Under the pieces are notes generated by a model that saw only the letters and a program-made list of their open reading frames with translations, was not told the origin of the DNA and searched no databases. A program made the position numbers and the translations under genes. A DNA stretch of 64,000 bases from Geothrix sp. PMB-07 (lineage in GTDB: Bacteria > Acidobacteriota > Holophagae > Holophagales > Holophagaceae), in the NCBI RefSeq assembly GCF_030758935.1, contig NZ_CP132333.1, forward strand, positions 1,984,992-2,048,991. The letters run 5' to 3'. Below, piece by piece: positions 44,597 through 59,952 of the stretch. Positions within the stretch are counted from its first letter, which is position 1. Each line of letters starts with the position of its first letter.

Positions 44597-45110
44597 AGAA
44601 CCTCCAGGGGGATGCTTTTCATTCTGGCGCGATGGATTGGAACCAGCGCAAGAAATCGGGAGCGGCGCTCGCAATGAACTCCGAAAGACTGGCCGCCACT
44701 CAGGCTCTTCCTCGCATCGCTGGCAGAAAAACCGCATGAAAAGTGGACCACCGGATTATGTGATGGGTGGATCTACCTCTTTTCAGGGATTGGGCCAAAG
44801 ATTTTCACCAATCCAGATGACGACTTCACGTCTTCCCAACCCGTCTGCGACCCGGGAAATTCGGGTCGCCCCACCGGGGCCTCCCGGAGAGGGACCGGCC
44901 CGCCGAAACGCTGATGGGCTCGCGGAAGGGACCCGACTTCTGCCTAACGGAGTGCCCATGATCAGGCCCATGCCCAAGTCCATCCCATTCGTGTCGAATC
45001 CGGATCATCGGGGGGTATCGGGGTGACGCCCTGGGGCTGCTGCAGTGTCGGTTCGGAGGGACCTCAGTCGAGGGGAGCCCCATGGGATCCGCCTGGAGCC
45101 ACGGCTTGGC
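44597..45110. other. Intergenic region between dipeptidase and LytS-like kinase
   Basis: About 510 bases that separate the leftward dipeptidase from the rightward regulatory genes. It contains the first copy of the GTGGACC repeat (44741-44783). Short ORFs here have no family resemblance, compositional bias or ribosome-binding site. The promoter for the kinase gene must lie here but was not identified. Confidence 0.4.
44741..44783 (+). repeat. GTGGACC double-repeat element, copy A
   Basis: AAGTGGACCACCGG (from 44741) and GGGTGGATCTACCT (from 44765) are two related units 24 bases apart. The same ordered pair occurs at 47058 on this strand and at 58767 on the opposite strand. It lies ~330 bases upstream of the LytS-like kinase. 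Confidence 0.55.
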
Positions 45111-46118
45111 ATGGGCGAAGGCTGGAAATGGTGTGTGGGCATGGCCATCTCATGGTTCAGCTATGAACTGATTCGGAGCTTCAGCTCCGGGGCCATCCCC
45201 TCTCTGGTCATGCTGCTCCGGATGGCCATCCATCCCGCGGCCTTCCTCTGGGGGAGCTTTGTCCTTGCGCCGACCCTTTGGAGCGCTTTGCCATGGAAGG
45301 GCGCCCTGCGGGGGGTTGGGTGCCTGGCCTGCGCCATGGGCTATTGGGCCCTTCTGTGGCGGATTGAAACCTTGATCGTCAAGGTTTATCTGGAGGCGCC
45401 TCCCTCATTGTCCGGTCTCTATCGGGATGTGATTGTGCTGGCACCGGCCATGCTGGGAGTCGGCGCCGCCCTCACCGAGTGGTTTGCCATGAGCTCGGAT
45501 CGCGACCGCATGGCCGAGCTCATGGTCCAGGACCGCTGCAGCCTTCTGCAGAATCAACTGCATCCCCACCTGCTCTGCAATGCGCTCAACGGACTGGTGG
45601 AATTGTCCAGAACTCATCCAGGCCTGGTGGAGCCTTCGCTGCTCGACCTGTCTGATTTCCTTCGCAAGCTCAGCGAAGCGTGCGTTCGATCCCTTCACTC
45701 CCTGGAAGAAGAAGGCGAATTGCTGGCCGCCTACCTTGATCTCCGCTGCCTAAGCTCCGGGCGCGCCGTCCCAGTGGAATGGGATTGGGATGACGCTCTG
45801 AATGCCTGCCAGGTCCCCACCCTGCTGCTTCAGCCGCTGCTGGAAAATGCCCTGAAACATGGAGATCTAAGCTCGCTTGGGGCTTGTGTTCGTTTGCACG
45901 CCAAGTGCGAGGCGGGAAACCTGGTGCTGGAAGTCTGGAACCCTGGATCCCTAGGCCCCCAACTGGAAGCCAAGGGCATTGGGCTTCGAAACCTGGAGGA
46001 GCGGCTTGAGGCGACCTACCAGGGGAGGGCTTCGTTCAGCCTCTTAGGCGAAAGGGGCTGGATCCTGGCCCGGGTCAGCCTGCCCATTGAAGTCCGGAAA
46101 CAGGGCCATGCCGCTTAG
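45111..46118 (+). CDS. LytS/YehU-type membrane sensor histidine kinase
   Basis: 335 aa. About four membrane helices lie in the first ~130 residues (WCVGMAISWFSYELI, MAIHPAAFLWGSFVLAPTLWSAL, GVGCLACAMGYWALL, DVIVLAPAMLGVGAALTEWF). A His_kinase domain (PF06580 type) follows, with the phospho-acceptor in LLQNQLHPHLLCNALNGLVEL and HATPase motifs LLQPLLENALKHGD and GIGLRNLEERLEATYQG. The start is uncertain: ATG 45111 is used (GGAG twelve bases upstream), but an upstream GTG at 45045 is possible. It overlaps the LytTR regulator by 11 bases. Kinases of this type sense peptides in Gram-positive bacteriocin systems; the lanthipeptide genes nearby suggest the same here. Confidence 0.88.
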   Translation: MGEGWKWCVGMAISWFSYELIRSFSSGAIPSLVMLLRMAIHPAAFLWGSFVLAPTLWSALPWKGALRGVGCLACAMGYWALLWRIETLIVKVYLEAPPSLSGLYRDVIVLAPAMLGVGAALTEWFAMSSDRDRMAELMVQDRCSLLQNQLHPHLLCNALNGLVELSRTHPGLVEPSLLDLSDFLRKLSEACVRSLHSLEEEGELLAAYLDLRCLSSGRAVPVEWDWDDALNACQVPTLLLQPLLENALKHGDLSSLGACVRLHAKCEAGNLVLEVWNPGSLGPQLEAKGIGLRNLEERLEATYQGRASFSLLGERGWILARVSLPIEVRKQGHAA

Positions 46119-46860
46119 GGTGGCGGTTGTCGATGACGAACCTATGGGCCGCAGCCGCCTCGTGCGCCTGATGAAAGAACAGGGCTGTGAGGTGGTGGCG
46201 GAACTTGAGAACGGCCCTGACTTTCTGGCATGGCTCGGTCTGGAAAGAGACAGCTTGGATGGCGTCTTCCTCGATGTGGAAATGCCTGGGGTCAACGGGC
46301 TCGAACTGATGGCCGAGTTACCGGCGATGCTTCCTGTGGTCTTCGTGACCGCCCATCCGGGGCATGCCGTGCAGGCCTTCGAGTCGGAGGCGGTGGACTA
46401 CCTGATGAAGCCCGTGAGGGCCACGCGCCTTGAGATCGCCCTGGCCCGCCTGACCCGCCGGAAAGGCGAGCCATTGATCCAAGACCGAAAAAAGGGAGCG
46501 CCGCCCGCACCTGAAAGAACCCAGCCGGGAACGCGGTTCCCGGTGCGGGCTGGGAAGGGGCAGCTTCTGATCGAATTCCGGAAGGTTACCCGTTTCGAGG
46601 TAAAGGGCGAAATCGTGTGGGCATGGGTGGAGGGTGAATGCTACCGTACCTACTGGACGGCCCTCACCCAGTTGGAGCCCAAGCTCACTGGCCTGGGATT
46701 CATCCGCATCCAACGGAGCATGCTGCTGCGCATGAGCACGGTCATCGGCATGAGGTCCCTGCCCAGTGGGCGCTGCATGGCGCGGTTGAGTGATGGGGTG
46801 GAAGTGGAGGTTAGTCGGCAACAGACCCCCTCCTTTAAACGGGCTTTGGGAGTTTGTTGA
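46108..46860 (+). CDS. LytTR-family response regulator 1
   Basis: 250 aa. The receiver domain has VAVVDDEPMGRSRL, phospho-acceptor Asp in GVFLDVEMPGVNGLELM, Thr in VVFVTAHPGHAVQAFE and Lys in YLMKPVRATRL. The C-terminal LytTR DNA-binding domain has FPVRAGKGQLLIEFRKVTRFEV, FIRIQRSMLLRMSTVIGM and LPSGRCMARLSDGVEVEVSRQQTPSFK. Overlaps the LytS-like kinase gene, forming a coupled pair. The regulator gene at 47420 is a clear paralogue. Confidence 0.92.
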   Translation: MPLRVAVVDDEPMGRSRLVRLMKEQGCEVVAELENGPDFLAWLGLERDSLDGVFLDVEMPGVNGLELMAELPAMLPVVFVTAHPGHAVQAFESEAVDYLMKPVRATRLEIALARLTRRKGEPLIQDRKKGAPPAPERTQPGTRFPVRAGKGQLLIEFRKVTRFEVKGEIVWAWVEGECYRTYWTALTQLEPKLTGLGFIRIQRSMLLRMSTVIGMRSLPSGRCMARLSDGVEVEVSRQQTPSFKRALGVC

Positions 46861-47419
46861 GGCCCATGAGGATCCATTAGGCCTGCCTGGTCGGTCTCCC
46901 CGACGTTCTTGATTCCAGTCCATGCCCGCACAGTGGTGCGATAGATCTGATGGCGGAATGAGGGCTGCCCGTCGGAGCTTAAAAGGCGCTTGCATTGCCC
47001 GCCGCTTAGACGAGGTGGACATGGCTCCGGCTCATTCGATTTGCTCAATCGGGGGCCAAGTGGACCACCCGATTTTGTTCTCAAGTGGACCTACTCCTTT
47101 CGGTCGAGCCGAATGAAGATCAATGATCAACCACATGCCCCACACGACCGGGAAGGCCAGTCTTCGCTTAGAAGGTTTGCGTGTGTCCGAACCGAACAGG
47201 CACACCCAGTCCGGTTTTCGGAGTGTTGTCCCTCCCATCCCGAAAAGGCATGTGATTCCCGTGGCCTCTCAAATCATTTTTGAAAAGTCATAAAAACCAT
47301 GCCTTTCCCTAGCATGCTGCCTCGCTCATATAGGTCCCTCGACGGGGTCCGGGGCTTCGCACGCTCCCTCCCCGGCCGGATTCGACGAACCTCGTTCGAG
47401 TCCGAATCCAGATTCGCCC
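46861..47419. other. Intergenic region between the two LytTR regulators
   Basis: About 560 bases without a convincing gene. Short ORFs (for example 46990-47283) show no family, no ribosome-binding site and Arg/Pro-rich shadow-like composition. It contains repeat copy B (47058-47100), a further AGGTGGACA-like unit at 47013, and an A/T-rich stretch around 47270-47300 that may hold the promoter for the second regulator. Given the paralogous regulators, loss of a second kinase gene from this gap is possible but unproven. Confidence 0.45.
47058..47100 (+). repeat. GTGGACC double-repeat element, copy B
   Basis: AAGTGGACCACCCG (from 47058) and AAGTGGACCTACTC (from 47083) are 25 bases apart and match copies A and C in order and orientation relative to the downstream gene. 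It lies ~320 bases upstream of the second LytTR regulator. Confidence 0.55.
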
Positions 47420-48163
47420 ATGTGTCTTAAAGTCGCCCTGGTTGACGACGAGTCCTGGGGCCGTGAACGACTGGCCAGCCTCCTCAGGGACCTCGATTGT
47501 GAGGTTATCGCGGAACTGGACCATGGACTGGCCTTGCTGTCCTGGCTGAAATCGGGCCCAGCAGTCGACTGCCTGTTCCTTGATGTGGATATGCCGGGAG
47601 TGAACGGTCTGGATGTATGGGCGGCCCTCGTACAGCCACCCCCGGTGGTGTTCATTTCTGCTCATTCCGGCCACGCCTTTCGGGCGTTCGAATGCGAGGC
47701 CCTGGACTACCTCCTCAAGCCTGTGATGCTTCCGCGCCTTCAACAAACCATCACCCGTTTGAATCGAATCAAGGCTGGCATGCCGGGGGCGCTTCAAGTC
47801 CTTTCCAAGGATGAACCCACCCGCTCGAAAGGTGATCGTTTCCCTGTGAGGGCGGGGAAGGGGCAATTGCTGTTGGAAACCCGCCGGGTGATCCTCTTCG
47901 AGGTCGAGGATGAAACCGTCTGGGCCTGGTGCGGCGGGGAGCGCTTCCGGACGTTCTGGAAATCGCTGTCGGAGGTGGAAGCCGAACTGCCCATGTCAGG
48001 CTTCGCCAAAATCCACCGCGGCGCACTGCTTCGCCTTTCAGCGGTGGTGGGGGTCCGCCCCTTGCCCAGTGGCCGTTGCCGGGCCCGGTTGAACGATGGC
48101 ACTGAAATGGATGTAAGCCGGGTGATGACGCCCACCTTCAAAGCCGCTCTGGGGGCGCGGTGA
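47420..48163 (+). CDS. LytTR-family response regulator 2 (orphan, next to lanA)
   Basis: 247 aa, paralogous to the regulator ~600 bases upstream along its whole length. Receiver: VALVDDESWGRERLASL, Asp in CLFLDVDMPGVNGLDVW, VVFISAHSGHAFRAFE, YLLKPVMLPRL. LytTR domain: FPVRAGKGQLLLETRRVILFEV, FAKIHRGALLRLSAVVGV, LPSGRCRARLNDGTEMDVSRVMTPTFK. No kinase adjoins it, so it may share the LytS-like kinase or respond to another signal. It sits immediately before the lanthipeptide precursor and is the best candidate for its activator. No clear Shine-Dalgarno sequence precedes the ATG. Confidence 0.9.
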   Translation: MCLKVALVDDESWGRERLASLLRDLDCEVIAELDHGLALLSWLKSGPAVDCLFLDVDMPGVNGLDVWAALVQPPPVVFISAHSGHAFRAFECEALDYLLKPVMLPRLQQTITRLNRIKAGMPGALQVLSKDEPTRSKGDRFPVRAGKGQLLLETRRVILFEVEDETVWAWCGGERFRTFWKSLSEVEAELPMSGFAKIHRGALLRLSAVVGVRPLPSGRCRARLNDGTEMDVSRVMTPTFKAALGAR

Positions 48164-48257
48164 TTTCGAGTGAGGCCACGGCTCCGTATCGTCACGGAAG
48201 CCTGGAGCTGTCGTTCCTCCTGCAATCCCTGCAGTCTTGTGAGCACCCGATATGTGC

Positions 48258-48287
48258 CACTCAGCTATCTGAGCATGTCACTCAGCC
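48258..48287 (+). promoter_or_regulatory. Candidate LytTR-binding direct repeats upstream of lanA
   Basis: CACTCAGCT (48258-48266) and CACTCAGCC (48279-48287) are 9-bp direct repeats separated by 12 bases, a 21-base period. LytTR regulators such as AgrA, PlnC and ComE bind paired 9-bp direct repeats with 12-13 base gaps. A possible -10 (TAGGAT, 48330-48335) with no good -35 lies 42 bases after the second repeat, as at activator-dependent promoters. Confidence 0.55.
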
Positions 48288-48388
48288 TGATCTTGGTGCC
48301 AAGCAGCCCCTGCGGCAGTTCCATCCGCTTAGGATCACTTTCACAAACCCCCGGATCCCGACGGATCCCCAAAAAATTGGAGGCTTCC

Positions 48389-48547
48389 ATGGAGAAGCAG
48401 GACGGCAAGAAGAAGTTGAGCTTGAACAAGGAAACGCTCAAGTCCCTGACCCAGAAAGAAGAGGGTGAGGTTGCTGCCGGTGGCCTGTCTTATTTTGTTT
48501 GCCGCACGGATTACTGTGGGACCAAAGGCCGTTCCTGCTGGTGCTAG
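48389..48547 (+). CDS. lanA: Class I lanthipeptide precursor peptide
   Basis: 52 aa; the ATG has GGAGG five bases upstream. The 32-residue leader is Lys-rich with KKLSLNKETLKSL, the leader signature of class I lanthipeptides from Bacteroidota/Acidobacteriota, and ends in EVAAGG, a double-Gly site for a C39 protease. The predicted 20-residue core is LSYFVCRTDYCGTKGRSCWC, with four Ser/Thr (S34, T40, T45, S49) and four Cys (C38, C43, C50, C52). S34-C38 and T40-C43 have the spacing of nisin rings A and B. The mature product would be secreted and is likely antimicrobial or a signal. It is convergent with the biosynthesis/export operon, with a shared terminator between them. Confidence 0.9.
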   Translation: MEKQDGKKKLSLNKETLKSLTQKEEGEVAAGGLSYFVCRTDYCGTKGRSCWC

Positions 48548-48562
48548 GCGGTTAAATCCTTC

Positions 48563-48603
48563 CCAAGGCCACGCGGCTTCCTGCTTCATCCGCGTGGCCT
48601 TGG
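48563..48603. terminator. Bidirectional rho-independent terminator between lanA and the export operon
   Basis: CCAAGGCCACGCGG and CCGCGTGGCCTTGG form a perfect 14-bp stem around a 13-base loop, followed on the + strand by TTTG. It starts 16 bases after the lanA stop and ends 40 bases before the stop of the convergent transporter gene, so it can serve both directions. Confidence 0.85.
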
Positions 48604-48643: not shown

Positions 48644-50659
48644 TCATGGCGTTTCAGAACAGGTCGGGATTGGGGATGATCCATCGTGGTGGTTTCCAGA
48701 TTCAGAAAGCAGCTCTTCATGGCTGGCGTAGATAACCGTGCGACCCGCCAGGAAGGGGCTATGGATGATGCGGTTCCGGCTGATCCAATCCAGGTTGGAA
48801 AGGGCTTCGTCCAGCAGCAGCAGGGGTCGATCCGAGGCGAGAATGGCGGTGATTGCCACCAGTTGGCGTTGCCCTCCCGAGAGGTTCTCGCCTCCGCTGG
48901 CCACCATGGTCTGATACCCCATGGGGAGGGTGCCCACCCAGGCATCCAGTCCCGTCTGCTTGGCCACTTTCATGAGATGGGACTGGTTTGCCCCGGCCGA
49001 GAAAAGTTTCAGATTTTCAAGAATGGATCCGCTGCTTAACCCCGGAAACTGGGGGAGGAAGGCCGTGAGGGACGAGGCGGAAAAAGTATCCAGTCCGCCA
49101 ATGCTGATGTTCCCTGCTTCGGGTGCGTAGAGTCCGGCCAGCAGTTTCAACAGAGTGCTCTTGCCCGAACCTGACGCCCCCTTCACCTGATGGAAGGTGC
49201 CTGGTTGTACCAAAAGCCTGGCGCCCTGCAGCACCCAGGGGGCTTCGGGGGCATATCGGAACCAGACCTCATCCGCCTTGATGGGGCCGCTCAAATCCTT
49301 GGGGCCCCGACGGGGCAGCTTGGGCGACCGCGTCTCCGCAAAGGTTTCTTGCACGGCCTCAAGTTGCGGTCGCAGAGCCAGGAAGGTGACACCGGTTTGT
49401 GCCAGGGCCAGGAGGGCCGCGGTGAAGGCACCGCTGAGCTGCACAAATACCAGCAAACTTCCCAGGCTGAGTTCCCCGGCCAGCACCCTTTGGCCACCCC
49501 AGATCAGAACCCCTGCCAGAAGCCCCTCATTGAGCAGGATGTTGCCTCCCTCAGTCCAAAGGCCGTGACGTTCCCGCCTTAGGCCGTGGTGGAGCTGAAG
49601 GCGCAACCGCTTCGCCCAGCGTTTGAAGGCCCAGGATTGGCTGGCGGTGGCCTTGAGGGTGGTGGCGCCTGTCAGGAGTTCCAACAGGGCGCTGTTTTCG
49701 GCCTGGGCGGCTTTCACTTCCTGCTGTTGTTCTCGGGCCTGCAGGAAGCCCACGCCGAAGGCGAGAGCGCTGATCGCCATCGCTCCCGCCAGGACCACCG
49801 CAGCGGGACCAGGCATGACCAGGGCCATGTAGGCGAGGTAGAACACCGCTGCCACACCACTGAACAGGGCTCCGAGCCCCTGATCCAACAGCAGTGAACG
49901 CGCCCGGCGGAGGCCGCTGAAGGTCTGAAGCAACTGCCCCAGGGTTTTTGATTGAAGGTATTTGAATGGCAGTGCCAGCAGGTGTTCGCAGAGCCCTTTT
50001 TCGAGAGTGGCTTCAAACGGCGTGGTGAAGGCCAGCAGGCTGACCTCTCGAAGCCAACCGACCCAGGCTTGGAAAAGCGATGCCAACAGCAGGCCCAGGC
50101 AAAGGATCGACAACAGGCTCGGCACTCCCCTTGAAAGGGATAGATCCACGAGTTTCCCCGTGAGCCAGGGCGGGAGCAGCGCCAACCCCTGGCCCACCAG
50201 CGTGATCATGGCCACTTGCCCGAGCACGCGGCGGTGCCGCGGCAGCAGGTTTCCCATGCGTGACCAAAGGCTGCCAGTGGGGGCCAAGGGCTCTGAGATG
50301 TCGATGGCGGGACCAGCCAAGTCCTGGCTCAGCCTCCCCAGCGGCGCGAGCTGCAGGCCTCCCATGCCCTGTTCCACAAGGTAGCCCCGGGCCACCCGCT
50401 TCCTGAGGAGAATCCAGCTGCCGTTGGTGAGCTGGGCGAGGGTGGGCAGCTCCAGGTGATGCAGGTCCTGCTCCTGGATGGTGATGCCCCGGGCCTCGAA
50501 GCCCCTGACCTGGAGCTCCTGGACCAGGTTTTCGAGGCTGAACTCCCAGAGCAGCGTTTCCTCGAGAGCCTGCAGCGATACCTCGATGCCCTTGAGCGAG
50601 AGCAGCCGCCAGAGGGCCAGGTTGCCGGGGATTCCCACCAGGGGCATCCGTTCAGACAC
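48644..50659 (-). CDS. ABC exporter with degenerate C39-like domain (lanthipeptide export)
   Basis: 671 aa. Residues ~5-130 follow the C39-peptidase fold pattern but lack the catalytic Cys and His (NLALWRLLSLKGIEVSLQALEE in the Cys region). Six membrane helices follow at ~150-430. The ATPase has Walker A GASGSGKST, Q-loop LPQFPGL, signature LSGGQRQ, Walker B LLLLDEALSNLD and H-loop ASHEE. GTG 50659 is chosen because GGAGG lies six bases before it; it overlaps the upstream exporter by eight bases. It probably forms a heterodimer with the peptidase-active exporter or binds leader peptide without cutting. Confidence 0.88.
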   Translation of the reverse strand: MSERMPLVGIPGNLALWRLLSLKGIEVSLQALEETLLWEFSLENLVQELQVRGFEARGITIQEQDLHHLELPTLAQLTNGSWILLRKRVARGYLVEQGMGGLQLAPLGRLSQDLAGPAIDISEPLAPTGSLWSRMGNLLPRHRRVLGQVAMITLVGQGLALLPPWLTGKLVDLSLSRGVPSLLSILCLGLLLASLFQAWVGWLREVSLLAFTTPFEATLEKGLCEHLLALPFKYLQSKTLGQLLQTFSGLRRARSLLLDQGLGALFSGVAAVFYLAYMALVMPGPAAVVLAGAMAISALAFGVGFLQAREQQQEVKAAQAENSALLELLTGATTLKATASQSWAFKRWAKRLRLQLHHGLRRERHGLWTEGGNILLNEGLLAGVLIWGGQRVLAGELSLGSLLVFVQLSGAFTAALLALAQTGVTFLALRPQLEAVQETFAETRSPKLPRRGPKDLSGPIKADEVWFRYAPEAPWVLQGARLLVQPGTFHQVKGASGSGKSTLLKLLAGLYAPEAGNISIGGLDTFSASSLTAFLPQFPGLSSGSILENLKLFSAGANQSHLMKVAKQTGLDAWVGTLPMGYQTMVASGGENLSGGQRQLVAITAILASDRPLLLLDEALSNLDWISRNRIIHSPFLAGRTVIYASHEELLSESGNHHDGSSPIPTCSETP

Positions 50660-52790
50660 GGTTTTCCTCCCGGGCCAGGACCACGTCCCGGAGCACCCCG
50701 GGCTGCGCGCACAGCGCCTCGAAGGTGCCTTGCTGGACGATGGCGCCATCCTGCATGGCCAGGATGCGGTCCGCATCCTTCAGGGTTTCCAGGCGGTGGG
50801 CGATGACGATGCGGGTGCAGCCCAGCTTGGCCAGGTTGGCATGCACCAGGGCTTCGGTCTCGAGGTCCAGGGAACTGGTGGCTTCATCCAGGAGCAGGAT
50901 GGCCGGCTGGCTGGCGATGGCGCGGGCCAGGCAGAGGCGCTGGCGCTCTCCGCCGCTCAAGGTGCGGCCGTTCTCGCCAAGCCGGGTCTTGTACCCCGCA
51001 GGCAAGCGCTTGATGACCTCGTGAACCTGGGCCAGGCCCGCAGCCCAGCGGATGCGCTCCATGGGCATGTTGGGATCGCGGAGGCTCAGGTTCGCCCGGA
51101 CCATATCGTCGAACAGAAAGGAATCCTGCAGTACCACCCCCAACTGGCTTCGCAGTTTCGAGAGGTCCAGCTGCCTGAGGTCCCATCCGTCGAAGGTGAT
51201 GCGTCCTGCCGTGGGCAGCAGCATGCCCATGAGCAGCCGGGCCAGGGTGCTTTTCCCAGCCCCGCTGCGGCCCACCAGGGCGATCTTTTCTCCGGGGCGG
51301 ATGGCGAGGTTGATGTCCTTGAGAATCCAGGGTGATCCCTCGGCATAACGGAAAGAAACACCCTCCAGGGTGATGGCGCCACAGAGTTGGCCTGGGTCCT
51401 GGGTTCCAGACGTTTCCTGGGCGTGCTCCAGCACATCGTCCAACCGTGCCAGATGGCTGCCGAGGAACTGGAGGTCGGTCAAAGCCCCCAGCAGGGATTC
51501 CAGGGGCCCCAGGAAGAGGGCCTGCAGGGAAAGGAAGGCCGTGAATACCCCTAGGGTCATGCGCTCGTCCAGAACCTCCCTGCCGCCCACCCAGAACACC
51601 GCCACGGTGGCCATTCCCTGGAGCAAGGTCATGAACTGGTGCGCCGCGATGCGGATCTTCTGGCGTTCCATGGCCACGTTCAGGCGGCGCACCATGCGCG
51701 GTGTCCACCGCGAGAGGACCTGCTCCTGGGAGGATGTGGCCTTCATCGTCTCGATGCCGACCAGGGCCTCCACCAGGATGGATTGCTCCTGACCGATGAC
51801 GGTCAGTTCGTTGGCCATCAGCTGCTCATTCTGCCGGCGCAGGAGAACAAGCAGGGCGACCCGGAGGCTCGCCAGCAGAAGCACGATGGCCCCCAGGCGC
51901 CAGTGGTAGGCGAGCATCAGGGCGGCGTACCCCAGCAGCAGGAAGGCGTCCAGGAGGGAGGACACGGTCCGCGACGACAGCAGGTCGCGGATCTGGGTGT
52001 TGCTTTCGACCCGGTTCACCAGATCGCCTGGCCGGCGCTGAAGGAAGAAGCCCAGGGGGAGCCGCACCAGATGCTCCACGAAGCCTTCCATGAGGCGGGC
52101 ATCCATGGCGTTCTGCACGCCCTGCAGCACAAAGCTGCGCAGCACCGAGATCAGGGCCTTGGCCACCACCGCGCCCCCCAACCCCAGGGCCAGTCCCCAA
52201 AGCCAGGGCAGGTACTTCGGCATGATCACGAAATCCACCAACAGCTGGTTGCCCAGGGGGAAGACCATGCCCACCACCTGGAGCATCAGCGAGGCCGCCA
52301 GCATCTGCGCGAGGGAAGGGCGCATGTCACGGATCAAGCCCAGGTACCGCCTCAGGCTGGGAAAGCGCCTTGGGCGCAGGGCAAAGCCATCGTCCGGGGC
52401 GAACGCGAGGGCCACGCCCGTGAAGCGCAGGCCCAGATCGGATTGACTGATGAACCGCCTTCCTTCGGCCGGATCGACAATCCTCACGCCCTTGGAGGTG
52501 AGTTTCTCCAGCACGACGAAGTGGCGGAACTCCCAATGGAGGATGGCGGGAAGGGGGAGGTCGCCCAGGTGCTCCAGCTCCACTTTGACGGCCTCCGCCT
52601 CCAGCCCGTAGGCCCGCGCAGCCTCCAGCAGGCTTGCGGCGTTGGCACCATCCCGGGAGACCTTGCAAGCCTCGCGCACTTCCGGGAGGGGGGCGTGGTG
52701 GCCCCAATGGGCCAGGATCATGGCCAGGCAGGCAGCTCCGCATTCGACCATCTCCATCTGCGGGATGTAGGGCACACGGTCGTAGGCCAC
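50652..52790 (-). CDS. lanT: Peptidase-containing ABC exporter (C39, LanT/PCAT type)
   Basis: 712 aa. C39 protease domain: oxyanion Gln11, catalytic Cys17 in MVECGAACLAMIL, His90 in FRHFVVLE and Asp106 in RIVDPAEGR. Transmembrane region ~155-430. ATPase: Walker A GRSGAGKST, signature LSGGERQR, Walker B ILLLDEATSSLDLE, H-loop IAHRLE. It should cut the precursor after Gly-Gly and export the modified core with HlyD across the envelope. The GTG start is preceded by GGAG six bases upstream and lies just past the HlyD stop. Such PCATs are more typical of class II lanthipeptides; here it serves a LanB/LanC system. Confidence 0.92.
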   Translation of the reverse strand: MAYDRVPYIPQMEMVECGAACLAMILAHWGHHAPLPEVREACKVSRDGANAASLLEAARAYGLEAEAVKVELEHLGDLPLPAILHWEFRHFVVLEKLTSKGVRIVDPAEGRRFISQSDLGLRFTGVALAFAPDDGFALRPRRFPSLRRYLGLIRDMRPSLAQMLAASLMLQVVGMVFPLGNQLLVDFVIMPKYLPWLWGLALGLGGAVVAKALISVLRSFVLQGVQNAMDARLMEGFVEHLVRLPLGFFLQRRPGDLVNRVESNTQIRDLLSSRTVSSLLDAFLLLGYAALMLAYHWRLGAIVLLLASLRVALLVLLRRQNEQLMANELTVIGQEQSILVEALVGIETMKATSSQEQVLSRWTPRMVRRLNVAMERQKIRIAAHQFMTLLQGMATVAVFWVGGREVLDERMTLGVFTAFLSLQALFLGPLESLLGALTDLQFLGSHLARLDDVLEHAQETSGTQDPGQLCGAITLEGVSFRYAEGSPWILKDINLAIRPGEKIALVGRSGAGKSTLARLLMGMLLPTAGRITFDGWDLRQLDLSKLRSQLGVVLQDSFLFDDMVRANLSLRDPNMPMERIRWAAGLAQVHEVIKRLPAGYKTRLGENGRTLSGGERQRLCLARAIASQPAILLLDEATSSLDLETEALVHANLAKLGCTRIVIAHRLETLKDADRILAMQDGAIVQQGTFEALCAQPGVLRDVVLAREENRV

Positions 52791-52793
52791 GGG

Positions 52794-54014
52794 CTACTCC
52801 AGCCAGCGGCGGAGCGGATCCAGCGCCAGCGTGATGATCGATTGGCGTTTCAAAGTGAACCGGACCTGAAGCAGCATGTTCGGCCGCAGGGTCACATGCG
52901 AGAGGCGTTTGGGGCGATCCGGGAGGATCTCGATCTCCACGCGGAAGGAAGGCACCTCGAGTTTGGCTTCCTCCCCGAGAACCTCCCGGATCTCGTAGGG
53001 GGAAACCAGGTCGTTGCCGATGCGGGAGACTCGCCCTTTCAGGGTGCCGTGCTGGGCGAAGGGATAGGCTTCCAGCTCCAGGTTCACCAGGCTTCCGGGC
53101 CGCACGTAAGGCCGATCCTTTTCGGCGAGAAAGGCCACCGCCTGCAGCGTTGAATCCTCGGGGATGAGCTTGGCCAGGGTCTGGCCGGCTTGCACCACAT
53201 CTCCGGGTCGGGCCACCAGCGCCTCCAGGAAACCGTCCACCGGGGCGAGGATCTCTGTTTGGCGAAGGGTGGCATCCAGGGCATCCCGCTTGGATTGAAT
53301 CCCACTCATCTCCTGGGAATGCTGCCAAAGCTGGCGCTGTCTCGCGCTTTCCAGGGCGCTCAGTTCTTGCATGATCTGCACCAGCTGCTGTTCGGCGGCT
53401 TCCTGCTGGCGCAGCCCGGCATTGAGGGCATCCTTGGCTTCCGCGACGTCGCTCTGGGAGGTGTAACCCTCTTTGAGGAGCCTCTCGGACTTCTGGGCTT
53501 TTCCGCGCAGGTGCTCGACCGAACTCCGGAAGCTGGCGATCTGGGCCTTCTGCTTGGCAATCTTGCTCTGGATGGCCTGGATCTGATCCTGGGTCAGCTT
53601 CTCTTCGCGGGCTGTGAATCCCTGGCCTTCTGACCGCAGCAACTGCAGCTGGCGATCCGTTTCGATGAGGGTGCTCTGCAGTTGTGCGGCCTCGATGCGG
53701 GCGACGGGCTGACCCTGGCGCAACCGGTCGCCGCTGTGGCCATAGAGCTTGCTTACCACCCCTGCGACTTGGGCCTGCAGCTGCCTGACGCCGGCGGCGG
53801 GCTGGAGGATGCCGTGGCTCGTTGAGATCATCTCCACTTTCCCGAAGATGCTGACGGCGATGGAGGAGGCCACGAGGGCCGCCATGACCCAGAGCAGGGA
53901 CCAGGTCCACGGGGGAGACACCCGGAGTGGCTCCCGGACGTCCTCTTCCTGAAACAGGTGTTCCAGGGCTTCTTTACGGAAGAGGGATTCCTTCGGGCCT
54001 TGGTTCGGGTCCAA
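52794..54014 (-). CDS. HlyD-family periplasmic adaptor for the peptide exporter
   Basis: 406 aa. Cytoplasmic N-terminus, one membrane helix (SLLWVMAALVASSIAVSIFG), lipoyl-like half-motifs (GVVSKLYGHSGDRLRQGQPVARIE and ILAPVDGFLEALVARPGDVVQAGQTLAKL), a long coiled-coil hairpin at ~110-260 and a beta-barrel domain. Like HlyD and LanT-associated adaptors, it would link the inner-membrane exporter to an outer-membrane channel (TolC-like, not in the window). The TTG start is supported by GGAG six bases upstream. It lies directly before the PCAT gene. Confidence 0.9.
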   Translation of the reverse strand: MDPNQGPKESLFRKEALEHLFQEEDVREPLRVSPPWTWSLLWVMAALVASSIAVSIFGKVEMISTSHGILQPAAGVRQLQAQVAGVVSKLYGHSGDRLRQGQPVARIEAAQLQSTLIETDRQLQLLRSEGQGFTAREEKLTQDQIQAIQSKIAKQKAQIASFRSSVEHLRGKAQKSERLLKEGYTSQSDVAEAKDALNAGLRQQEAAEQQLVQIMQELSALESARQRQLWQHSQEMSGIQSKRDALDATLRQTEILAPVDGFLEALVARPGDVVQAGQTLAKLIPEDSTLQAVAFLAEKDRPYVRPGSLVNLELEAYPFAQHGTLKGRVSRIGNDLVSPYEIREVLGEEAKLEVPSFRVEIEILPDRPKRLSHVTLRPNMLLQVRFTLKRQSIITLALDPLRRWLE

Positions 54015-54047: not shown

Positions 54048-57000
54048 TCAGGCCGATAGGACGTCGGGACGGTTATTGGCTGACCGAGCTAAACGGGATT
54101 CGTACAGTCGCTCAAGAAAGTCGTAGAGGACGAATTCCTGGGCCCTCTGGGAAGAGCGGAAGAGGCGGTTGAGATGCATGTGGATGTAACTCCGGACGAG
54201 GGCCTCCAGAGGCTGAGTCAGGCGGCCTTCGGTTTCCTTCTGCCGGAGGCGTTGAAAGCATTCAGAGGTGCTCTGGTTGAAACGGTTCAGGAGCGCCAGA
54301 CCAGGCCTGAGGTCGTCCAAAGGTTCCGCTTCCGCGAACAACCAGGCATCCATCTCCTTCCGCCACTGCCTGAACCGTTCCCCCAATTTCACATCCAGTC
54401 CACGCTTTGACTGGAACTCCTGAGCAAAGGCGATCCGCGCCTTCCGGACGATGTCAAGCCTGGCAGGGAGGTCGAACCCCAAACCAGACAGGAGGCCATC
54501 CATGGCTTTCAAGCCAAGGCGCCAGCGGTGGGCTCCGCCAGCGTCTCCCGGGTAGGTCTGCACGAGGCCCAGCACCAGCTCGCTGTCGTGCCAGAAGAAA
54601 TCCTCGGCCAGTTGGAGTCCCTCCACGCCGCCGTACCGTTCCAGTTCAGGCTCATACGTATCCGATTGCAGTTTCCAGCACCATCCATCGGCCATCAGGG
54701 GTGCCAGCATCGCGTGGGCCCGAGGAAGCAACTCCTCCATCAGGCCCTTGGGGTTTCCATGGAATCGCAACCTCAAGTGGTTCCCGGGGTCGCCGTAGCG
54801 CAGAAAGAACCAGCGGTCCCATAGGCCCCGGGTCTCCTCGAGAAGAGGCACCAGACCTTGGATCAGGATCTGGTCGGCGGTGCTGGAACCGGCATATAGC
54901 TTGAGGTAGAGCCACTCGGATCCCGGCGCGAAGTGCCGAACAGGGGCGTCGGCGTCTGGCACGAGCTTGGCCCAGGCCGCTTCTGGGTTGCGGCTCCGGA
55001 GCGGCTGTGGTTCGGGCGACCTGGTGTAGGAGATGACCAACTCGTGGGTATGGCGTCCTTCTGGACTCTCGGCCAAGAGTTCCTGCGGGGAGGGATAGAA
55101 CTCCTGCAGTTGGAACCCTGGACGTTTGGCCACCAATCGCAGCAGCGTTTCCACCCATGGCGCGTGGTCCAGGTCTGCGAGAAGTTCGTTGTCGCCATCG
55201 GCCAACACCACGAAGCGGGGCAGGTTCCGACTTGTCCGGAAGGATTGGAATCGCAGGTACGCCTCGGATCCTGTGGTATCGAGGATGGCCTTGATCTCCT
55301 TGCCTTCGATATTCCACCGCGCCTTGGCCAGGATGTGGCGTCCCCTGCGCACTCGCGGCAGGTAAGGCAGGTCCGAAAGGCAGCCCCAGTCCCATCCCGC
55401 GAACGAGCCGTCCTGATCCTGCAGGCGACCCAGGAAGCGATAGACGCTCAGGCCTCGGGAGTAGCTGTGAGCCGACGTCAGCCGGGGGATGACCTCGCAG
55501 CCAAGCTGTCTGGACCGGAGGGCCACGCGAGAGCCCACCACGGAGACCAGAAGATCCTGCATGGGGATCTGGCAGGAGGGCTGAGCACCACCTGCGCCCA
55601 GAAAGGGAATCTCATGGTCCCGCAGCAGAGGGCGGCACAGGACATTGCCCATGCGCCCTTCGGGCAGGTGGACTACCTCCGCGTAGATGGCTTCCGGTCG
55701 GAATTTTGCCTCAGCCTCCAGATGCGCTTTCACCTGGGCTTCGAGCTGAGGGTCACCATGGCAGAAGCGCCCGAGGAGCCGGGCCCCGGAGGGGCCGGAA
55801 TAATTCCCCAGGATGAACTGGTAATCGCCAGCGTCCACAGCCTCGGCCGAGGCCGCCACCAGGGTGGCCATGGCGGCAAAGGCATCAGGCAGGGCTGGTG
55901 GGGCGGGATTTTCCAGTGCCTTGAGATCCTCATCGGTGAGCTCCCACTCAAGAGCCTTGCCGAGTGCCAATAGGCGTTTCGAAAGGAAGGCATCTCGCGG
56001 CGTGAAGCGCGGGTAGTCGGGCTCACCCGTGGCGGGGAAGGGCAGGCCCTCCAGCAGGGGGGTTGCCTCCATTGCCACAGAGCCACTGGACTCAAATCCA
56101 ATGCCGGTCTCCTCGTCCAAGGCCTCCAGAAGCGGCACCCAGCGGGCCTCGTAGCGTTCGTGGAAAGCGCTTCTGAAGGCCTTCATGGGGTCGGAGGTCC
56201 GGGAGCCGAGACGGTGCAGGAGGGCGATGCCATCGTCCAGATCCTTTCGGACGCGCGAGCTCAGTCGGGCTTCTGGTGCAGGTCGGTTGAGATCTACCTG
56301 GAAGAGGTGTTTGAGATTGATCTTGACCGGCAAGGATTCAAGATCCTTCGCCAAGGCGCGGTAGGCCTTTGGGGAATGGCCAAGCCCGGCCTCATCGATG
56401 CTCAGAAGGGCATCCCGGATGGAGGCCAGCTTCTCTCCGAGCCGGCGGGTTTCCTCCTGCGAGGCCAACTGGGCGATCACACCGTGGATCGGTTCTTGGC
56501 CGGTGACAGCCGGGTACAGATTCGAGACCAGCACCTGGCTGTCGATGAGTTCATGGATGAACGCGCCGGCATCCTGCTCATCCACCTCTTCTTCGAGCAT
56601 CAGGGAATGCGCGAGAGCAGCCATGGAGGTACCGTCAGCGGCGAGTTTCAGCACCGCTGCCAGGTAGTCGGGGCACTCCAGGGCCACCAGATGGTAATTC
56701 CGGCCCCGTTCCGCACCGAGGCGGGCTTCGGCGTAGCGGAGTCGCCCGGCTGCCTTGTAGAGGCTGCTGTTGGGGCGATAGGTGAGGGTTCTTCGAACTG
56801 CTGGGTCTTTCTCGAGGGCCTCCACGAGCGCGCACAGGTAGTCCATATCCAGTCGAGTCCGGCGCGCGCACTGAGCCAGACCTTCCACCCTGAGATGGGT
56901 ATCCTCACCCCAGCTGCCTGTGGAACAGGCCGCGAATAGGCCAAAGGGCGTCGGGCGGGAGGCCATACGGCTCAGATAGCGGATCAGGCTCTGTTCCAGG

Positions 57001-57281
57001 CGGCTGCGCTTGTCATCGGCGAGTGCGCCTTGCAGCCAGGGGTCGATCAGTTCGTCCAGGTCGGGAGAGGCCAGGAACAGGGCATCCCGAACTTCCGGCC
57101 GAAGGACGCTCTCTCTCAGGTGCTGACGCAGGCCCTCGCGGTCGGCCTGGAGGGCCGCTTCCAATTCGCCCCAGGTCGCCCCGGGAGCGCGGAGATCCTT
57201 GGACCAGCTGGACAGGACATCGAAGGGAAGGGTGGGTGTGCGAAACGCGAAGCGGGGATCGGAGTGAAAGGGATGCGCCAT
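54048..57281 (-). CDS. lanB: Full-length LanB lanthipeptide dehydratase
   Basis: 1077 aa, typical for class I LanB. The N-terminal glutamylation domain has IRYLSRMASRPTPFGLFAAC at residues 100-119, the Lant_dehydr_N hallmark. The C-terminal elimination domain (SpaB_C) starts near residue 790 (WLYLKLYAGSSTADQILIQG; WFFLRYGDPGNHLRLRF) and ends with RSYIHMHLNRLFRSS. Using Glu-tRNA, LanB glutamylates Ser/Thr of LanA and eliminates glutamate to give dehydroalanine/dehydrobutyrine. Both domains are in one chain, unlike split LanBs. ATG 57281 lies 17 bases after the lanC stop; its ribosome-binding site is weak, so coupling is likely. Confidence 0.95.
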   Translation of the reverse strand: MAHPFHSDPRFAFRTPTLPFDVLSSWSKDLRAPGATWGELEAALQADREGLRQHLRESVLRPEVRDALFLASPDLDELIDPWLQGALADDKRSRLEQSLIRYLSRMASRPTPFGLFAACSTGSWGEDTHLRVEGLAQCARRTRLDMDYLCALVEALEKDPAVRRTLTYRPNSSLYKAAGRLRYAEARLGAERGRNYHLVALECPDYLAAVLKLAADGTSMAALAHSLMLEEEVDEQDAGAFIHELIDSQVLVSNLYPAVTGQEPIHGVIAQLASQEETRRLGEKLASIRDALLSIDEAGLGHSPKAYRALAKDLESLPVKINLKHLFQVDLNRPAPEARLSSRVRKDLDDGIALLHRLGSRTSDPMKAFRSAFHERYEARWVPLLEALDEETGIGFESSGSVAMEATPLLEGLPFPATGEPDYPRFTPRDAFLSKRLLALGKALEWELTDEDLKALENPAPPALPDAFAAMATLVAASAEAVDAGDYQFILGNYSGPSGARLLGRFCHGDPQLEAQVKAHLEAEAKFRPEAIYAEVVHLPEGRMGNVLCRPLLRDHEIPFLGAGGAQPSCQIPMQDLLVSVVGSRVALRSRQLGCEVIPRLTSAHSYSRGLSVYRFLGRLQDQDGSFAGWDWGCLSDLPYLPRVRRGRHILAKARWNIEGKEIKAILDTTGSEAYLRFQSFRTSRNLPRFVVLADGDNELLADLDHAPWVETLLRLVAKRPGFQLQEFYPSPQELLAESPEGRHTHELVISYTRSPEPQPLRSRNPEAAWAKLVPDADAPVRHFAPGSEWLYLKLYAGSSTADQILIQGLVPLLEETRGLWDRWFFLRYGDPGNHLRLRFHGNPKGLMEELLPRAHAMLAPLMADGWCWKLQSDTYEPELERYGGVEGLQLAEDFFWHDSELVLGLVQTYPGDAGGAHRWRLGLKAMDGLLSGLGFDLPARLDIVRKARIAFAQEFQSKRGLDVKLGERFRQWRKEMDAWLFAEAEPLDDLRPGLALLNRFNQSTSECFQRLRQKETEGRLTQPLEALVRSYIHMHLNRLFRSSQRAQEFVLYDFLERLYESRLARSANNRPDVLSA

Positions 57282-57298: not shown

Positions 57299-58603
57299 TC
57301 AGCGGGTGGGGACAAGGGAGGGCGTGCTGATCAGCAGAAAGCGGTCCCAGGACAAGTCGGCGCCTTCCAGGAGGGACAGCAGGGCCAGGGCCACGCCCGC
57401 CGCGCCTTCCAGCAGGCCGGGGTCGGGGTGGCGATCCTGAGCGAGTGAGGGCGAGGTGGCGGGATCCGCGGGGCGGTAATGGTGGAACCCCGCGAAGCCT
57501 GTTCCGGGCTGGTGGGAATCCAGCACATGTTTGAGGTAGACCTGGCCCGCAGCCAGGAAAGCCAGATCGCCCGTGGCCTGGTGCAGGCGGTTGAAGATGT
57601 GAAGGTTCCCCGCGCTCCCGTGACAGAGCGACACATCCATCACGCCAGAGCGCTCGATGGGGCGGGAGGCAGCGAGTCGCGCCAGATTCAGCGCCAAGGC
57701 TTCCCAACGGACGTTTCCGACCAGTTGGGCGGTGTTCAGTAGGGCGATGGAAGCGCCCAGGTCTCCGTAGCACCAGGCAATGCGGTTGGAGGCCTGCGGA
57801 GCCCGGTCCATTTCGACTGGGCACCAGCCTGCGAGGTAGGCGCCACCGTCGGGATCCTGCAGCTGGGTTTTCAGCCAGGCCATCCCTGCCGTGAGAAGCC
57901 GTCCAGACCTCTTCGGGGCGATCCCGGCAGCGGCCATGGCCGCCAGCAGATGGAGCACACCAGGAATGCCGTGGGCCAATCCCAGATTCAGGTAACCCTG
58001 AGGGGCCTGCTCGCATTGCCATGACGGCAGGCGCTCCGGCGGAGTGATCCAGGCAAGGCCGGGCCCCCGGGGCGTGGCCTTGGCTTCGAGCCGGTCCAAC
58101 ACCTTCTCCAGAATCTTCCGCCCCGATGGTCTAGGCAGCCGCTCCAGGCCGTACACCCCCCAGCCCACCAGGCCGGAGATGAGATCGTATTCCTCGGTCC
58201 ATCGGCCCGACGCAAGGTGTTCCAGGAGGATGTCATCCATGTCGGCGTTGGGATCGTCCTCGGTCTCCATGAATACGTGCCGATTCAGGTGCTCCAAACA
58301 CCAGCCAATGCCCAGGTAGCCCCCATAGAGCGTTGGCGTCGGGGATTCCTCCACCTTGTCAATGGCCAGGGCCAGGAGATCATGGGCCCGTTGCCGCATG
58401 TCCTCGAAGCCGACGCGCCGCGATAGGTGCCCCAGGAGGAGGGCTGCGCCTGAAAGGCCTGAAGCCAGGCTCGGCCCCATCTGATCCCGGGCCTCCCACA
58501 GGGCTTCGGCGACCGACTCCACCAGGCCGAGGATGCGCGCGTGTTGGGCCGAGGACGTGGCGATGGTCAGGCGTTTCGTGGGCTGTGGGGAGATGACTGT
58601 CAC
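57299..58603 (-). CDS. lanC: LanC lanthionine synthetase (cyclase)
   Basis: 434 aa. Zinc ligands are all present: Cys278 in IAWCYGDLG and Cys327-His328 in VSLCHGSAG, plus the active-site His211 in GLAHGIPGVLHLLA. Gly-rich helical-toroid repeats (SGLSGAALLLG, LYGGYLGIGWCLEHL, ISGLVGWGVYGLERL, LLEGAAGVALALLS) fit LanC. It adds Cys thiols to dehydrated Ser/Thr to form (methyl)lanthionine rings. The GTG start is chosen for AAGGA seven bases upstream; the frame is open further upstream but the extra sequence is Pro-rich and unlike LanC. First gene of the lanCB-hlyD-PCAT-ABC operon. Confidence 0.95.
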   Translation of the reverse strand: MTVISPQPTKRLTIATSSAQHARILGLVESVAEALWEARDQMGPSLASGLSGAALLLGHLSRRVGFEDMRQRAHDLLALAIDKVEESPTPTLYGGYLGIGWCLEHLNRHVFMETEDDPNADMDDILLEHLASGRWTEEYDLISGLVGWGVYGLERLPRPSGRKILEKVLDRLEAKATPRGPGLAWITPPERLPSWQCEQAPQGYLNLGLAHGIPGVLHLLAAMAAAGIAPKRSGRLLTAGMAWLKTQLQDPDGGAYLAGWCPVEMDRAPQASNRIAWCYGDLGASIALLNTAQLVGNVRWEALALNLARLAASRPIERSGVMDVSLCHGSAGNLHIFNRLHQATGDLAFLAAGQVYLKHVLDSHQPGTGFAGFHHYRPADPATSPSLAQDRHPDPGLLEGAAGVALALLSLLEGADLSWDRFLLISTPSLVPTR

Positions 58604-58788: not shown

Positions 58789-59952
58789 TCAGCGGTCGAA
58801 CAGTCCCGGCTCCCGCACCACCTGAGGTTCGGGGGTTGTGAAGGGGGCATCGCATGGCTTCACCAGAGCCCCGGCACGGAGGCCCAGCAGGCGGATTTTT
58901 CGATCCAGGGGCACGCGCCTCAGGCAGGTTCGCGCGGCATCCCGAAGGGCTTCCGCATTCGCAATGGGCAGGGCCAGGGTGTGATCGCGGGTGATGGTGG
59001 AGAAATCTTCGTAGCGGAGTTTGATGCCGATGCACCCGGCCACATAACCCTTCCGGCCGAGGTCCTGGGCAAGGCGTTCACAGAGATCCAGGAGGATGCG
59101 GGTGAGGGCATCCCGATCCTGCTTCGGGTGAAGATCCCGCTCGAAGGTGGTTTCACGGCTGATGGATTTCGGTTCGCGGAAAGTGGTCAACGGTCGCTCG
59201 TCGCGGCCGTGGGCAGCTTCGTGCAGCCAGGCGCCGTAGCTTCGGCCGAAATGCTCCACCAGCCAGGTGCGATCCGCCGCAGCCAGCTCGCCGATGGTGC
59301 GGATGCCCAAGCCCTCCAGCTTCGCGGTGGCCTTGGGGCCGATGCCGTTCAGGGCTGAACAGCGCAGGGGCCAGATTCGGCTGGGGATGTCATCCAGGCC
59401 CAGAAGGGTGATGCCATCGGGTTTCTGGAGCTCGGATGCGAGTTTGGATAACAGCTTGTTGGGGGTGATGCCGATGGAGCAAGTCAGGCCCGTGGCCTCC
59501 CGCACCGCAGCCTTCAGCCGAAGGGCCAGTTCCCGGGATTCACCGGGCACCTCCGTCAGATCGATGTAGATCTCGTCGATGCCCCGATCCTCGATGCAGG
59601 GTGCGAGTTCCGCCACGGCGGCCTTGAACGCCCGCGACACCCGGCTGTAGGCCTCGAAGTGCGCGGGCAGGAGGATGGCCTCTGGGGCCAAAGCCGCCGC
59701 CTTCATCAGGCCCATGCCGGAGCGCACCCCGAAGGCCCGGGCCTCGTAGGTGGCCGTGGTGGCCACACCGCGGCCCACATAGTGCTTGAGCTTGGGGAAG
59801 GCTGCGCCCGCTTCCACCGCGCTCGCACGCCGCCCTCCCACTACCACCGGGAGCCCCTTCAGTTCTGGATGCTCCAGCAGTTCCACCGAGGCGAAGAAGG
59901 CATCCATGTCCAGATGGGCAATGCGGCGAGGTGAGGCGGAGGTGGACTCCAT
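58789..59952 (-). CDS. dinB: DNA polymerase IV (Y family)
   Basis: 387 aa. Catalytic palm motifs: HLDMDAFFASVELLEHPELKGLPVVVGG and EDRGIDEIYIDLTEV. The steric and finger region is ATTATYEARAFGVRSGMGL, the HhH region is LNGIGPKATAKLEGLGIRTIGELA, and the little-finger domain has ISRETTFERDL. Error-prone translesion synthesis is the expected role. The C-terminus EPGLFDR resembles a beta-clamp-binding motif (QxxLF-like). The ATG is preceded by AAGGA. I found no convincing LexA box. It borders the lanthipeptide operon and is transcribed in the same direction. Confidence 0.93.
   Translation of the reverse strand: MESTSASPRRIAHLDMDAFFASVELLEHPELKGLPVVVGGRRASAVEAGAAFPKLKHYVGRGVATTATYEARAFGVRSGMGLMKAAALAPEAILLPAHFEAYSRVSRAFKAAVAELAPCIEDRGIDEIYIDLTEVPGESRELALRLKAAVREATGLTCSIGITPNKLLSKLASELQKPDGITLLGLDDIPSRIWPLRCSALNGIGPKATAKLEGLGIRTIGELAAADRTWLVEHFGRSYGAWLHEAAHGRDERPLTTFREPKSISRETTFERDLHPKQDRDALTRILLDLCERLAQDLGRKGYVAGCIGIKLRYEDFSTITRDHTLALPIANAEALRDAARTCLRRVPLDRKIRLLGLRAGALVKPCDAPFTTPEPQVVREPGLFDR

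Follow-up and report, generated by a model that had tools for sequence, protein, structure and literature searches.

The gene at 48389-48547 of the window (the whole 64-kb stretch of DNA that was analysed, in which all coordinates without a locus prefix are positions) very probably encodes a Gly-Gly/C39-type class I lanthipeptide that would be made by the adjoining enzymes, switched by LytTR-type regulators and matured by an enzyme set shared with other precursors. Gene identity and lanthipeptide class are well supported by sequence comparison. The core sequence is new, and the kind of peptide, the Gly-Gly/C39 class I lanthipeptides, has already been described (Walker et al. 2020). The interest of the system rests mainly on its operator and on precursors that are unlinked to the cluster.

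The precursor gene and its locus

The features of the locus are as follows.

45045..46118, + strand: sensor histidine kinase (PF06580 domain match; true start possibly downstream)
46108..46860, + strand: LytTR response regulator 1 (domain match)
47420..48163, + strand: LytTR response regulator 2 (shares 53% identity with regulator 1; missing from the sister-species cluster)
48254..48308, + strand: candidate LytTR-type operator, half-sites GTGCCACTCAGCT (48254), ATGTCACTCAGCC (48275) and GTGCCAAGCAGCC (48296), 21-bp period
48330..48335, + strand: TAGGAT, possible -10 element (putative role), conserved 5' of precursors L010, L013 and L014
48379..48383, + strand: ribosome-binding site GGAGG of the precursor, inside GGAGGCTTCCATGG, a stretch common to four other precursors
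48389..48547, + strand: LanA lanthipeptide precursor gene, 52 aa (open reading frame, leader model match, paralogues)
48389-48484, + strand: LanA leader, Gly-Gly at its end, MEKQDGKKKLSLNKETLKSLTQKEEGEVAAGG
48485-48544, + strand: LanA core, LSYFVCRTDYCGTKGRSCWC
48563..48603, + strand: hairpin 3' of the precursor, 14-bp stem, -28.9 kcal/mol, z -6.4
48644..50647, - strand: second ABC transporter permease/ATPase, without a C39 match
50652..52790, - strand: C39-peptidase ABC exporter (PF03412, PF00664 and PF00005)
52794..54014, - strand: HlyD-family periplasmic adaptor (profile match)
54048..57281, - strand: LanB dehydratase, full length, with domains for glutamylation and elimination
57299..58603, - strand: LanC cyclase, zinc-ligand motifs kept (start codon uncertain; the frame opens at 59035)

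The precursor begins with ATG a few bases 3' of GGAGG, and its stop codon is followed by the hairpin, which is likely a terminator between the precursor and the converging ABC transporter gene on the opposite strand. The reading frame, translation and residue numbering of the initial annotation (S34, T40, T45 and S49; C38, C43, C50 and C52) are exactly as claimed, and its call of a lanthipeptide precursor is borne out by the leader class, the ribosome-binding site, the hairpin, the paralogues and the adjoining LanB, LanC and C39 exporter. It had also stressed the balance of four Ser/Thr with four Cys; the counts are right, but balance alone is not evidence, because related precursors are unbalanced (L013 has three Cys and L075 two). 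The same annotation did not recognise the core and proposed a database comparison as a check. This bore it out: searches of the PDB, viral contigs, 72,556 plasmids and 100 related genomes gave no copy of LSYFVCRTDYCGTKGRSCWC, nor did one species-level genome scan, in which the sole match to the precursor was the leader of the sister species. No second convincing precursor came out of a mechanical search of the 64-kb window for other short peptides with Gly-Gly and Cys. No class I lanthipeptide characterised from this group of bacteria is known to us, and a full-text literature search with the genus name and 'lanthipeptide' found none.

The leader fits the motif LxLxKx5L exactly (L10-x-L12-x-K14-x5-L20, LSLNKETLKSL) and ends in Gly-Gly. 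Against the NCBIfam model lant_leader_L1a (NF038153) it scores 21.4 bits (E 2e-4), 0.6 bit short of the curated cut-off of 22, which two sister-species precursors exceed with 25.1 and 33.1 bits. Walker et al. (2020, PMC7268733) noted in Bacteroidetes class I precursors whose leaders have the LxLxKx5L motif, many with Gly-Gly at the end, and whose clusters encode a C39 protease; by mining, the same study listed nearly 8,500 lanthipeptide precursors, most of them uncharacterised.

The class I locus is complete, with LanC, LanB, HlyD, the C39 exporter, a second ABC protein, the kinase and two LytTR regulators; the dehydratase is separate, the cyclase stands alone with its zinc ligands (Cys, Cys-His), and the precursor lies near the enzymes. 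LanB matches PF04738 (E 9e-167) and PF14028 over its full length, aligns along most of its sequence with the solved dehydratases 9g04 and 5ehk and partly with NisB, and carries RPTPFG and ERYGG, motifs present in these alignments. LanC matches PF05147 (E 4e-41), and its alignment with NisC (2g02/2g0d) retains AWCYG, CHG, the LAHG histidine and the YD-IxG aspartate. The C39 domain of the exporter (PF03412, E 1.7e-36) has the Cys, His and Asp motifs and is expected to cleave after Gly-Gly. Although related to the NHLP bacteriocin export system, the transporters fall below its equivalog cut-offs (TIGR03796, 653 of 853 bits; TIGR03797, 243 of 709; TIGR03794, 96 of 156). The strand of the precursor, opposite to that of the enzyme genes, counts against our preferred explanation, as do the transporter scores, the leader score just short of its cut-off and the lack of a precursor in the sister-species cluster. 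Between the two LytTR regulators lies a 560-base gap without a recognised gene (46861-47419), possibly the junction at which the cluster acquired regulator 2 and the precursor.

Predicted rings and maturation

When each Ser or Thr is paired with a downstream, non-adjacent Cys, the sole full matching is S34-C38, T40-C43, T45-C50 and S49-C52. The initial annotation had left two options for the C-terminus, interlocked (T45-C50/S49-C52) or nested (T45-C52/S49-C50). The former stands, whereas the nested option was rejected because it needs a bridge between the neighbouring residues Ser49 and Cys50, a 7-membered ring; excluding it leaves one full pairing. To our knowledge no natural lanthipeptide has a Ser-Cys bridge between neighbours. 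Because the full pairing is unique, the predicted ring pattern is sharp and testable. At their C-termini, related cores read T-T-N-R-H-I-C-W, T-V-N-R-H-I-C-W and T-H-N-R-L-C-P, as against T-K-G-R-S-C-W here; this shared C-terminal Thr...Cys spacing supports T45-C50, and S49 and C52 are peculiar to the window core.

In nisin, rings A and B abut (SxxxCTxxC) and rings D and E interlock. The nisin A/B spacing reported for this core holds for the ring sizes, SxxxC and TxxC, but not as a likeness to nisin, since these sizes are common and Arg39 separates the two rings. The core reads SYFVCRTDYC and lacks the lipid II motif SxxxCTP(G/S)C (Walker et al. 2020, PMC7268733). Nisin-like lipid II binding was therefore rejected; with Arg39 between the rings and the motif absent, lipid II binding is not to be inferred.

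The following scheme for chemistry, regulation and function is read from sequence. LanB would bind the LSLNKETLKSL leader and dehydrate the four core Ser/Thr via glutamyl-tRNA, after which LanC would join the cysteines to give S34-C38, T40-C43 and the interlocked T45-C50/S49-C52. The C39 exporter would cut after Gly32 and export the peptide with the HlyD adaptor. The fully dehydrated core has a predicted average mass of about 2276.7 Da. The kinase and LytTR regulators would switch transcription of the precursor through the operator at 48254-48308, and with the same operator 5' of an unlinked paralogue, one enzyme set would serve several dispersed precursors.

Dispersed precursors and a putative common operator

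The same genome has two further leader-type precursor genes, L010 and L011. The L010 paralogue MVKQNEKKLNLKKETLKDLTSEAADGVAGGGRVTYSCQTCYVNECFTTNRHICWWDK is unlinked, about 142 kb from the window precursor. A sister species of the same genus (G028) has three precursors, L013, L014 and L075, the first of which is flanked by the same genes as the L010 paralogue. The orthologous cluster of G028 (identities of 78% for LanB, 80% for LanC, 84% for HlyD and 70% for the regulator) has one regulator only and no precursor between the regulator and the ABC gene; the precursor and second regulator have thus each been gained or lost at this position. LanC is present as one copy each in the window genome and in G028, and an examination of 35 other genomes of the genus gave none. 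With only one LanC in the genome, the unlinked Cys-containing precursors are without any other stand-alone cyclase. Precursors like that of the window are sparse in the phylum and occur in 13 of 396 genomes. Two similar precursors, L049:9843-10031 (-) and L073, occur in G140, from another family of the phylum, and one of them lies near a LanB that is 46% identical to that of the window.

In the arrangement described for LytTR operators, two 9-bp direct repeats are set apart by a 12-bp spacer; the repeats lie 5' of the promoter and have a period of 21-22 bp (PMC2714321, PMC6193735). The direct repeat in the window follows this spacing (9 bp plus a 12-bp spacer, 21-bp period), and its half-site core GCCACTCAG resembles the ACCACTTAG-like repeats of the same two papers. 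The window precursor, L010, L013 and L014 each have a half-site pair at exactly 21 bp, with leave-one-out P<=0.001 for each of the four (2,000 dinucleotide shuffles). A pattern search of the 4.24-Mb genome with up to three mismatches matched only the window precursor (in two overlapping registers) and L010, and a reversed control pattern gave no match genome-wide; since the pattern derives from these sites their recovery is expected, and the informative result is that there are no others elsewhere. L075 was found after the four-site set was assembled, and its pair at spacing 21 scores 16.1, against 6.7 for the next best spacing. Thus all three G028 precursors have the direct repeat. The distance from the second half-site to TAGGAT differs between gene pairs by 11 bp, which is roughly one turn of the helix. 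No operator copy was found 5' of the kinase, regulator 2 or LanC, or in the G028 cluster; its absence from the first three counts against the preferred explanation. The initial annotation had missed the operator, the unlinked precursors and the lack of a precursor in the G028 cluster.

L011 was left out of the regulon since it has no such operator (P 0.26). This third leader-type precursor, MEFTKKLNLTRETLCHLGNEDLNHVVGGGGGIKHKGATYDGSDTNINCVNTSFTETGNCWGEVTVIY, lies at L011:6858-7061 (-), at 4.16 Mb, beside a transposase-like fragment. Further half-sites, spaced by 21 bp, lie some 490 bp 5' of the L010 operator (L010 8272-8217); they precede a 103-residue Cys-containing open reading frame, L010:7800-8108 (-), just upstream of the L010 precursor. 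This frame had no clear homologue in the fetched loci and is possibly an immunity or accessory protein.

The operator common to unlinked precursors suggests that one LanB/LanC/exporter set probably serves several of them under one switch. Whether this extends to a dispersed Acidobacteriota regulon, in which a single LanB/LanC/C39 set makes several different lanthipeptides from scattered precursors, switched together through a private LytTR operator, and precursors are gained and lost at the cluster, we judge to be an even matter. A shared operator would offer a simple route to the substrates of an enzyme set, even to those encoded at a distance from the cluster, which standard cluster mining misses.

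A second LanB (47% identical) lies elsewhere in the genome (L012:7559-11030, about 2.47 Mb), divergent from a short Cys-free open reading frame MNSSLSFRKESIQRSSSASETMNRALQAQNSGATREQRPISITVISTLTIK that is followed by a histidine kinase and a LytTR regulator. The short frame keeps its place beside LanB in 26 distinct versions from the genus and sister genera (also L022-L046, L052 and L053), none with Cys, most with GGGAG or a similar site 5', and with a Thr/Ser-rich tail; no NCBIfam model matched it, and 35 genomes of the same genus gave no LanC. The pair looks like a system for a dehydrated, ring-less peptide, and it may be more novel than the window precursor.

Function and known systems

The function of the mature peptide is most likely antibacterial, and otherwise that of a signalling peptide. 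That it serves mainly as a pheromone for the adjoining kinase, and not as an antibiotic, is a tentative reading that we consider rather unlikely. It would account for the kinase and two LytTR regulators adjoining the precursor, for an operator on precursor genes, and for the absence of the lipid II motif and of recognised immunity genes; two homologous LytTR regulators likewise act on one operator in the pln bacteriocin regulon, a quorum-sensing system (PMC2714321). However, bacteriocin systems use the same type of regulator, several divergent cores under one operator would be unusual for a single cognate signal, and the regulators here are without an autoregulatory operator.

Far less probable is that the window frame is a decaying or silent duplicate and the unlinked precursors are the working substrates. 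The absence of a precursor from the G028 cluster, and the presence of an unlinked one at a shared place in both species, would fit such a history, but the frame is intact, with a ribosome-binding site and putative terminator, its three half-sites make up the second-strongest operator found, and its leader is conserved as in its relatives. A disulfide-bonded double-glycine bacteriocin, exported through C39 but not modified by LanB and LanC, is the least probable reading of all. Four Cys, a Gly-Gly leader, the C39 exporter and a strand opposite to the enzymes are consistent with it; yet the leader belongs to the class I lanthipeptide type, the cluster holds no other precursor for LanB and LanC, and every Cys is preceded by a Ser/Thr of its own.

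Nisin of Lactococcus lactis is alike in its first two ring sizes and in an interlocked C-terminal pair ending S/T-C-x-C. Here, however, an Arg lies between rings A and B, CTP(G/S)C and the middle ring C are missing, the D-type ring is larger, a Gly-Gly leader stands in place of FNLD/NisP, and regulation would be of the LytTR and not the NisRK type. We know of no LytTR operator for the prochlorosins. In those peptides one enzyme, ProcM, likewise serves many precursors, but it is a class II enzyme and the leaders are of the Nif11 type (PMC10783134). The pinensins are also class I lanthipeptides from a Gram-negative group, the Bacteroidetes, but their LanB is split into two proteins (PMC7268733), as opposed to the full-length LanB here. 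The group of Walker et al. 2020 (PMC7268733, NF038153) shares the leader motif, Gly-Gly, separate LanB and LanC and C39 exporter; the present system differs in its new core, its Acidobacteriota host, a leader just below the curated cut-off, and dispersed precursors with a LytTR-type operator. A link between LytTR regulators and lanthipeptides was not found in the open-access literature. In the pln regulon of Lactobacillus plantarum (PMC2714321) the plantaricins are unmodified and the operator also drives the regulator and export operons; as here, a pair of homologous LytTR regulators (59% identity, against 53% here) goes with several peptide genes under one operator of 9-12-9 bp repeats.
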